Origin: Gammaproteobacteria bacterium
Lineage (GTDB): Bacteria; Pseudomonadota; Gammaproteobacteria; Pseudomonadales; Azotimanducaceae
Direction: 5' to 3'
Assembly (NCBI GenBank): GCA_005799745.1
Contig: SYFY01000203.1
Span: forward strand, 1 to 64,000
DNA length: 64,000 nt
The position numbers and the translations under genes were made by a program. The notes under the pieces are model-generated. The model was given only the letters and a program-made list of their open reading frames with translations. It had not been told where the DNA came from and ran no database searches. Shown here piece by piece: positions 53,523 through 56,655 of this stretch; position 1 is the stretch's first letter, and the number at the start of each line of letters is the position of its first letter.

Positions 53523-54356
53523 ATGATCACATTTGCCAATCCCGTGCCGGTAAGCGATGCACAGCGCTTGAGCTATCTTGAGTTCGCGCGGATGGCTGCT
53601 CGTCGGGCGGGAGAAGCGACGCTTCCTTTCTTCCGAACGCCCTTGATCGTCGACCACAAGCCAGGTCTAGGGAGGTTTGACCCGGTAACCGAGGCTGATC
53701 GTGGCGCTGAAACGGTGTTACGTGAGCTGATCCGTGAAAGATTCCCAGAGCATGGTGTGTTGGGTGAGGAGTTCGGTCATCAGCCAGGGAACGGCCTCAC
53801 TTGGGTGATCGATCCTATCGATGGCACCCGCGCCTTTATGTCCGGAATGCTGCACTGGGGATTATTGCTGGGTCTGTTTGACGGCCAGGAGCCGATTGTC
53901 GGTGTGATGTATCAACCGTTCACCAGAGAGCTGTGGTCGGGTGATGGTAGTGCTGCGTGGTTCCAACAAGGTGATGGAGGCGCGCAACGAATCCACTCGC
54001 GAGGGGTGAGCGATCTGGCAGTTGCAACACTTGGAACTACCAATCCCAATCTGATTGCTGCTGGCTCAGCGCGCGAAGGGTATGACCGGCTCGAACGGAG
54101 CGTGCGGCTCGCACGATATGGTGGTGATTGTTATGTCTACGCGATGGTCGCCATGGGGTTCATGGATCTTGGCATCGACGGTGGGCTGCATGCCTACGAT
54201 GTCATGGGGCTCATCCCGGTGATCCGTGGTGCAGGTGGCGTGATCACAAATTGGGCGGGTGAGTCTGCATGCATGGGTGGCAACATCCTCGCTTCGGGCA
54301 ATGCCGTGCTTCATGAGAGGGCGCTTGCTGTACTTAGCGGTGCGGCGGGGCGTTGA
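53523..54356 (+). CDS. hisN: Inositol monophosphatase family protein, probable histidinol-phosphatase
   Basis: ARRAGEATLPFFR, PVTEADRGAETVLRELIRERFPEHGVLGEEFG, WVIDPIDGTRAFMSGMLHWGLLLGL. Confidence 0.88.
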   Translation: MITFANPVPVSDAQRLSYLEFARMAARRAGEATLPFFRTPLIVDHKPGLGRFDPVTEADRGAETVLRELIRERFPEHGVLGEEFGHQPGNGLTWVIDPIDGTRAFMSGMLHWGLLLGLFDGQEPIVGVMYQPFTRELWSGDGSAAWFQQGDGGAQRIHSRGVSDLAVATLGTTNPNLIAAGSAREGYDRLERSVRLARYGGDCYVYAMVAMGFMDLGIDGGLHAYDVMGLIPVIRGAGGVITNWAGESACMGGNILASGNAVLHERALAVLSGAAGR

Positions 54357-54481
54357 TCTTGGTGCGTTAGTGGTTTGAATCGCACCAAAGCGTGGCGTTC
54401 CAAGCGAGCGGTAAGCTCAAAACGGCCGAGATCATGGGTTGAACGCATCATCTCGCGTTTCAACTCGTCACCTGAGCTAGT

Positions 54482-54497
54482 TGGCACATACATTGCT
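54482..54497 (+). promoter_or_regulatory. Sigma-54 promoter candidate 1 (-24/-12)
   Basis: TGGCAC-ATACA-TTGCT, matches TGGCAC-N5-TTGCW; upstream of glnK-amtB. Confidence 0.7.
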
Positions 54498-54583
54498 TGG
54501 TATGTATCAACTCATCAGGAGGCACGGCAAGAAACAGAACTCCCTTCACTCCCCATTTGATCTCTCTCCAATCTCTCGTGTGT

Positions 54584-54608
54584 GGAGGGGTGGTTCTGCC
54601 GCCCCTCC
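54584..54608 (+). terminator. Strong hairpin between two sigma-54 elements; possible terminator or sRNA structure
   Basis: GGAGGGGTGG-TTCTG-CCGCCCCTCC (10-bp stem with one G-T pair) followed by TTCCCTCTATT. Confidence 0.5.
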
Positions 54609-54626
54609 TTCCCTCTATTCAATTAG

Positions 54627-55181
<555 letters not shown>

Positions 55182-55203: not shown

Positions 55204-56655
55204 ATGGACGCGATAAAAACACGAGAAATCCCGCGCGAAGCGGGAATGAGCGCACGATTGCCTCTGGCTACAGCGTTCGTCACGATGTTGGCCTTGTTGC
55301 CAACCTTTACGTTTGCATCCGATGCACCCGTCCCTGATAAGGGTGACGTTTCATGGATGCTCGTATCAACACTGCTCGTCATCATGATGACGATACCCGG
55401 GCTCGCACTGTTCTACGGCGGTCTTGTTCGAGCAAAGAACATGCTGTCCGTACTCATGCAGGTGATGGTGGGGTTCTCACTCATTGTCGTGTTGTGGAAC
55501 GTGTATGGCTACTCCCTGGCGTTCACTGAGGGCAATGCGTTCATTGGCGGTTTTGATCGCCTCTTGATGAACGGCATTTGGGATCCCGTAGCGGGTACCT
55601 TCGCTATGGCGGCGACGTTCAGCAAAGGCGTCTACATCCCGGAGATCGTCTTTGCCGCGTTTCAGGCGACGTTTGCCGGGATCACTTGCTGTCTGATCGT
55701 CGGAGCGTTCGCTGAACGCATGCGATTTTCTGCTGTGCTTATCTTCATGGTTATCTGGTTCACCATCAGCTATCTGCCGATTGCACACATGGTGTGGTAC
55801 TGGATGGGACCGGACGCATACAGCAGTGCCGAAGTTGCCGCGGACATGACCTCTAAAGCAGGGTTGATCTGGCAGTGGGGCGCACTGGATTTCGCGGGCG
55901 GAACTGTCGTTCACATTAATGCCGGCATCGCAGGTCTCGTCGGTGCGTATCTCGTAGGTCGCAGAACGGGATATGGGCGAGAGCCGATGCCACCTCATAA
56001 CCTCGTCTTCACTATGGTTGGCGCATCACTCTTGTGGGTCGGCTGGTTTGGCTTTAATGCGGGCTCCGCACTGGAGGCAGGCAATTTCGCCGCCCTGGCC
56101 TTTATCAACACATTCCTCGCTGCCGCCGCCGCAGTGCTCGCGTGGATCTTTGCCGAGTGGGTCATCAAGGGCAAACCCTCGATGCTCGGCGCGGCGTCAG
56201 GTGCGGTCGCGGGACTGGTCGCTATCACACCAGCAGCGGGTAACGTGGGATTGATGGGGGCCCTGGCTATCGGAGCCATCGCAGGACTTGTGTGTCTATG
56301 GGGAGTAACAGGGCTCAAACGAATGCTCAACGCGGATGACTCGCTCGATGTCTTCGGCATCCACGGTCTTGGTGGCATCGTCGGCGCGTTGCTTACTGGC
56401 GTGTTCAACACACAGGTGCTGGGTGGCCCAGGACTCGTCATGGATTGGGTGACGGCGACCGTGGGATCGAACCCCATCGGCACACAAGTTTGGATTCAGC
56501 TCAAAGGTGTGCTCGTGACCGTTGTCTGGTCAGGTGTGGCGGCGTTCATCGCCTTCAAGATCGCGGACCTCATCGTTGGGTTACGTGTTCCTGAGGATGA
56601 AGAACGTGAAGGTCTGGACACCAATGCGCATGGCGAGCGCGCTTATACCCACTGA
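55204..56655 (+). CDS. amtB: Ammonium transporter
   Basis: DKGDVSWMLVSTLLVIMMTIPGLALFYGGLVRAKNMLSVLMQ, DFAGGTVVHINAGIAGLVGAYLVGRR, GIHGLGGIVGALLTGVF. Confidence 0.97.
   Translation: MDAIKTREIPREAGMSARLPLATAFVTMLALLPTFTFASDAPVPDKGDVSWMLVSTLLVIMMTIPGLALFYGGLVRAKNMLSVLMQVMVGFSLIVVLWNVYGYSLAFTEGNAFIGGFDRLLMNGIWDPVAGTFAMAATFSKGVYIPEIVFAAFQATFAGITCCLIVGAFAERMRFSAVLIFMVIWFTISYLPIAHMVWYWMGPDAYSSAEVAADMTSKAGLIWQWGALDFAGGTVVHINAGIAGLVGAYLVGRRTGYGREPMPPHNLVFTMVGASLLWVGWFGFNAGSALEAGNFAALAFINTFLAAAAAVLAWIFAEWVIKGKPSMLGAASGAVAGLVAITPAAGNVGLMGALAIGAIAGLVCLWGVTGLKRMLNADDSLDVFGIHGLGGIVGALLTGVFNTQVLGGPGLVMDWVTATVGSNPIGTQVWIQLKGVLVTVVWSGVAAFIAFKIADLIVGLRVPEDEEREGLDTNAHGERAYTH

Follow-up and report, generated by a model that had tools for sequence, protein, structure and literature searches.

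A candidate nitrogen-responsive small RNA between two sigma-54 promoters upstream of glnK-amtB in one genus of Azotimanducaceae

Introduction

The DNA in front of the glnK-amtB operon of this gammaproteobacterium raises a simple question: does it give rise to a regulatory RNA of its own, or only to a leader of the genes behind it? The window analyzed here (the whole stretch of 64,000 nt) carries an inositol-monophosphatase (IMPase) family gene (53523-54356) upstream of the region, followed by a first sigma-54 promoter (P1), the predicted RNA with its hairpin, a second sigma-54 promoter (P2), and then glnK-amtB. The original prediction, made from the window alone, described a sigma-54-dependent small RNA (sRNA) or leader that starts near 54508 and runs through an unusual C/U-rich stretch with anti-Shine-Dalgarno-like (anti-SD) motifs into a strong hairpin with a pyrimidine-rich tail. 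Here, we follow up this proposal by comparison with relatives, folding, and searches of the genus, family, order and class. The features that the argument needs are the following.

54359-54397, no strand assigned: enhancer-like inverted half-sites TTGGTGCG (54359-54366) and CGCACCAAAGCGTGGCG (54381-54397), from the sequence
54481-54498, + strand: P1, sigma-54 promoter TTGGCACATACATTGCTT, 12/12 in the scan, also in G055, G029, G074 and G091
54509-54612, + strand: predicted small RNA of ~104 nt, 69% identical to G055 (spacer 42%), at the same position in G029, G074 and G091
54517-54522, + strand: AGGAGG near the 5′ end, without a start codon after it, from the sequence and a five-genome comparison
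54540-54579, + strand: C/U-rich segment, a candidate for pairing, with TCTCTCTCCAA..TCTCTCGTGTGTG as its conserved core, from sequence comparison and folding
54584-54608, + strand: hairpin GGAGGGGTGGT-TCT-GCCGCCCCTCC, 11 bp, candidate terminator or 3′ stabilizer, from local folding
54689-54707, + strand: P2, second sigma-54 promoter CTGGCACGAAACGTGCTCT, for glnK-amtB, 11/12, in all five genus genomes
54837-55181, + strand: glnK, PII protein (PF00543, E 2.6e-33)
55204-56655, + strand: amtB, ammonium transporter (PF00909, E 2.5e-114)

Two sigma-54 promoters frame the predicted RNA

The promoter and the start site are as originally described. P1 (TTGGCAC-N5-TTGCTT) reaches the full score and places the predicted transcription start at ~54508-54509, giving the −24/−12 promoter expected of a sigma-54-dependent sRNA at the correct spacing from the predicted RNA 5′ end. 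P1 and P2 are the only sites scoring at least 11/12 in a scan of both strands of the 64 kb; the scoring scheme and the segment boundaries were chosen by us after seeing the sequence, and the p-values given in this text are descriptive.

The inverted half-sites, ~85–120 nt upstream of P1, are a probable binding site for NtrC, an assignment for which we take the E. coli-type site as the model. Similar GCACCA/TGGTGC half-sites precede P1 in 5/5 genomes, their full dyads being imperfect. All five genomes of the genus also contain matches to the NtrC family and to Hfq. The ntrC matches lie on contigs other than that of the glnK-amtB locus in each of them, and in the window's own genome NtrC is split across two contigs.

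The layout is shared within the genus, and conservation follows the predicted RNA

P1, RNA, hairpin and P2 occur in this order upstream of a glnK-amtB operon in every one of the five available genus genomes, all of them draft assemblies, with a predicted RNA of ~104–150 nt. The RNA comes in a short form (the window and G055) and a long form (G029, G074 and G091), in which AGGAG begins 9 nt and 26 nt from the start, respectively. Searching the genus by BLAST with 54340-54860 gave a 75% match in G055 that covers window positions 54513-54614, that is, the predicted RNA. The G055 locus repeats the order of the window (IMPase gene, half-sites, P1, RNA, hairpin, P2, glnK). There, CATCAGGAG directly follows the start, and TCTCTCTCCAATTCTCTCGTGTGTG and the hairpin come after it; the AACTCCCTTCACTCCCC stretch is replaced, and TCTCTCTCCAA..TCTCTCGTGTGTG alone is retained from the C/U-rich segment.

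The long form is predicted to fold into a stem-loop with a C/U-rich loop of ~28–30 nt and a GC-rich hairpin (z −4.3 to −6.2). Three of its 20 pairs are changed on both sides with pairing kept; with five genomes to compare in the whole genus, the covariation is thin. The gene after the module is glnK in G091 and a porin-like gene followed by glnK in G029 and G074, and the glnK-amtB operon behind the long form differs from that of the window. It is possible that the operon has been exchanged behind a retained control region. The short and long forms resemble each other only marginally in sequence (1/400 to 58/400 shuffles), and the case for their common descent therefore rests mainly on position.

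Within each form, the RNA stands out from its surroundings. G029 and G074 are 96% identical over the RNA, against 75% in the enhancer region, 42% in the 12 nt that separate P1 from the start, 76–77% in the spacer past the hairpin, and 71% at the third codon positions of the porin gene (RNA versus third positions, p = 3e-10). For the window and G055, the corresponding values are 69% (ungapped) in the RNA and 42% in the spacer (p = 4e-4). Conservation begins at the predicted start and fades beyond the hairpin in both pairs, a pattern suggesting that the predicted RNA has apparently been kept by selection. A loss of the hairpin and the C-rich segment in relatives, which the original prediction had named as counter-evidence, is not what we see: the hairpin persists, and so does the core of the segment. 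The idea of a sigma-54-dependent sRNA thus gains strong comparative support, from a layout present in 5/5 genomes and from conservation confined to the predicted transcript.

A C/U-rich segment and a hairpin with a competing fold

The C/U-rich stretch is indeed unusual: its best 40-mer is 82.5% pyrimidine, the highest on the + strand of the window and the only one there at this level (two occur on the − strand). Its C-over-G excess is not unusual, being equaled by 26 stretches on the + strand and 59 on the − strand of the window. A Rho-site reading on this measure was dropped as evidence because the value is so common.

Taken as a local segment, the hairpin at 54584-54608 is as strong as originally claimed, with 11 pairs at −22.7 kcal/mol and a z of −5.5 (0/200 shuffles equally stable), and its three one-sided changes in G055 all keep the pairing. 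In the whole window RNA, however, an alternative fold is predicted to be more stable (−33.9 versus −30.8 kcal/mol), in which AGGAGG pairs with the 3′ arm of the hairpin and CUCCC with the 5′ arm, and which leaves the hairpin a pair probability of ~0. Because of this competitor, the strength of the hairpin is certain for the local segment only. The hairpin has a pair probability of 0.81 in G055, and hairpins dominate the predicted ensembles of G029, G074 and G091. The tail, described earlier as pyrimidine-rich, contains 4 T in 8 and fails the standard filter for intrinsic terminators; U-tracts are weak in four of the five genomes (3–4 T in 8), with the hairpin conserved.

In the predicted folds, the C/U motifs are mostly unpaired, with at least one unpaired CUCUCC or CUCCC in each of the five RNAs, while the exact motifs vary. 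The anti-SD part of the original proposal is the weaker one: every homolog exposes C/U motifs, yet not all of the UCCC motifs themselves are conserved. For pairing with local ribosome-binding sites, the start regions of glnK, amtB and the porin gene perform no better than shuffled sequences.

Searches beyond the genus

A search for the tandem-promoter pattern (two sigma-54 sites ~204–233 nt apart) finds it once in each of the five genus genomes, at the glnK locus, and in 1/202 other family genomes, where the match lies away from glnK (genus versus the other family genomes, p ~2e-9). Samples of the order and class contain matches, none of them upstream of glnK. In most other genera of the family, glnK has just one sigma-54 promoter, which often lies a long way upstream with a reading frame in between, and no second promoter with a C/U-rich RNA is seen there.

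Covariance models (CMs) built from the short and long forms have strong matches in this genus alone. Outside it, they return nothing convincing in 207 family genomes (a few weak matches, E 0.002–0.05), and model R2 finds no convincing match in 392 genomes of the order. Second copies of the RNA within genomes were represented by chance-level CM matches only. Rfam 15, with both gathering and permissive thresholds, yields no family at the cut-off and nothing credible. As far as searched, the RNA would thus be restricted to this genus.

The closest named records that we found for the window AmtB (55204-56655) are from Burkholderiales, with up to 79% identity; the amtB following the RNA in G029, G074 and G091 has a visibly different start. 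At the betaproteobacterial loci whose AmtB is closest among the named records, the models find nothing below E 0.2, and in nearly all of them glnK is preceded by no more than one good sigma-54 site.

Several further arrangements came to light. Genomes of genus g23 of the family (L014-L017, L019, L021) have a sigma-54 site ~295–317 nt upstream of glnK, followed in several of them by a conserved non-coding leader of some length (GAGGATCTAAACGGCGACGGCTGGGAAAGT..GGTTTAAGGCTACTATTTC), which does not resemble the window RNA. In genus g7 (G039, G112, G132, G139), two glnK genes share a contig and a strand, ~1.4–1.5 kb from each other. At locus L249 (G686:C1:1685301-1685524), two sigma-54-like sites in tandem, with GC-rich sequence between them, directly precede a nirB-like gene; this is possibly a nitrate/nitrite leader RNA.

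A proposed trans-acting RNA and its alternatives

From the promoters, layout, predicted structure and conservation, which are directly established, we arrive at a genus-specific, non-coding sRNA that would be made from its own sigma-54 promoter under NtrC control and act in trans through its C/U motifs; we put the probability of this reading at roughly 0.6. When nitrogen becomes limiting, phosphorylated NtrC would switch on both promoters, P1 and P2, at once. Transcription from P1 would yield the 104–150-nt RNA, presumably ending at the GC-rich hairpin, and P2 would drive glnK-amtB, with the porin gene first in two genomes. The RNA would then act in trans, probably with Hfq (hfq is matched in 5/5 genomes). 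Its exposed C/U motifs point to purine-rich sites as partners, and most plausibly the unpaired CUCUCC and CUCCC would engage ribosome-binding sites on mRNAs that are to be lowered in nitrogen-starved cells. The AGGAGG near the 5′ end may restrain these motifs.

The strongest competitor, which we nevertheless regard as unlikely, is a cis-acting leader: P1 would produce a long glnK leader in which the hairpin and C/U segment serve as an attenuator, whether intrinsic, dependent on Rho, or controlled by a bound antiterminator protein, and the short RNA would be a by-product, as with the NalA/nirBD leader of Pseudomonas. Such a leader would account for an RNA encoded upstream of glnK on the same strand, for the two competing folds of the window RNA (hairpin versus AGGAGG/CUCCC pairing), and for the weak U-tract, and the C/U-rich, G-poor stretch could resemble a Rho-binding site. 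Against it, P2 is a good sigma-54 promoter past the hairpin in 5/5 genomes and would bypass any attenuator, conservation fades from the hairpin to P2, and the genes behind the module differ (porin-glnK or glnK directly). The predicted folds of the relatives also count against it, with the dominance of hairpins in G029, G074 and G091 and the 0.81 pair probability in G055. A second sigma-54 promoter behind the hairpin speaks for an RNA in its own right more than for a simple leader of glnK.

Improbable, in our view, is an insulator, in which P1 is an upstream or relic promoter, the hairpin keeps transcription that comes from the IMPase gene or from P1 from running on into P2, and the RNA itself has no function. 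As a local structure, the hairpin is more stable than any other element, and read-through from 53523-54356 is possible; yet the whole RNA is conserved beyond the hairpin and above third codon positions, P1 is retained in all five genomes, and the distance from AGGAG to the start is constant within each form. Still less credit goes to an RNA that titrates a protein, such as CsrA/RsmA (through GGA motifs) or Hfq, instead of pairing with mRNAs: AGGAGG is conserved and CrcZ offers a sigma-54-dependent precedent for Hfq sequestration, but each RNA has only one or two GGA and lacks a AANAANAA motif. Hardly credible is a short peptide or upstream ORF read from the P1 transcript, which would fit the strong ribosome-binding-like AGGAGG and the two 3-nt gaps in the window/G055 alignment, but was rejected, in line with the earlier finding of no convincing ORF, because no start codon closely follows AGGAGG in any of the five genomes, no reading frame is shared (none is conserved in G055), and stops interrupt the relatives' frames.

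The trans-acting sRNA can be extended into a bolder and, to our minds, doubtful picture. The promoter-RNA-promoter block might be a self-standing regulatory cassette retained before two different glnK-amtB operons, so that one NtrC signal, through paired promoters, would produce both an mRNA-silencing RNA and an ammonium-uptake operon. AGGAGG and the C/U motifs would then act as an internal switch, by which the pairing region is masked or freed.

Known systems and significance

The precedent named originally, NrsZ of Pseudomonas, is an intergenic, processed RNA of ~226 nt, described as being induced through NtrB/C and RpoN when nitrogen is limiting; it lies between ntrC and PA5126, has the conserved motif ACAGGCAG, and has been termed the first nitrogen-regulated sRNA of P. 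aeruginosa PAO1 (PMC9308961, PMC8395346). The RNA described here is likewise intergenic, with nitrogen/sigma-54 regulation predicted from sequence. The precedent thus serves for regulation but not for motif or genomic place: ACAGGCAG has 0 occurrences in the five RNAs, and the window RNA, which contains a C/U-rich element, sits before glnK-amtB with a sigma-54 promoter on either side. CrcZ is also RpoN-dependent, a 407-nt RNA driven by the two-component system CbrA/B that serves carbon control by Hfq/Crc sequestration (PMC9308961); neither the window RNA nor its homologs have the motif AANAANAA.

Among C-rich-loop sRNAs, Agrobacterium PmaR mainly activates and uses no anti-SD region, while AbcR1 acts by anti-SD pairing (PMC6234868). 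Their likeness to the long form, with its C/U-rich single-stranded loop on a GC-rich stem, is one of shape. We know of no sigma-54 or nitrogen control for sRNAs of this type. C-rich-loop RNAs such as PmaR are nearest in shape, and NrsZ is nearest in regulation. GlnZ-type sRNAs of Enterobacteriaceae are released from the 3′ UTR of the glnA (glutamine synthetase) mRNA (PMC9731577). They share with our candidate the tie between a nitrogen-limitation sRNA and a nitrogen-assimilation gene (here through predicted promoters), but the window RNA lies upstream of its genes and has its own predicted promoter. The NalA/nirBD leader of Pseudomonas is an NtrC/sigma-54 leader that gives a short terminated RNA before a nitrogen operon; here, in contrast, a second sigma-54 promoter lies past the hairpin.

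Few NtrC/sigma-54-controlled small RNAs are described in the literature that we found. In titles and abstracts of the open-access literature, which leaves most subscription journals outside, no sRNA between tandem sigma-54 promoters at glnK is evident. The locus thus probably encodes a new regulatory small RNA that is switched on by nitrogen starvation. If true, the core nitrogen response of a little-studied lineage would gain a post-transcriptional branch. The predicted RNA, which all available genomes of the genus carry and which went undetected in the rest of the family, may also offer a test case for how such RNAs originate.
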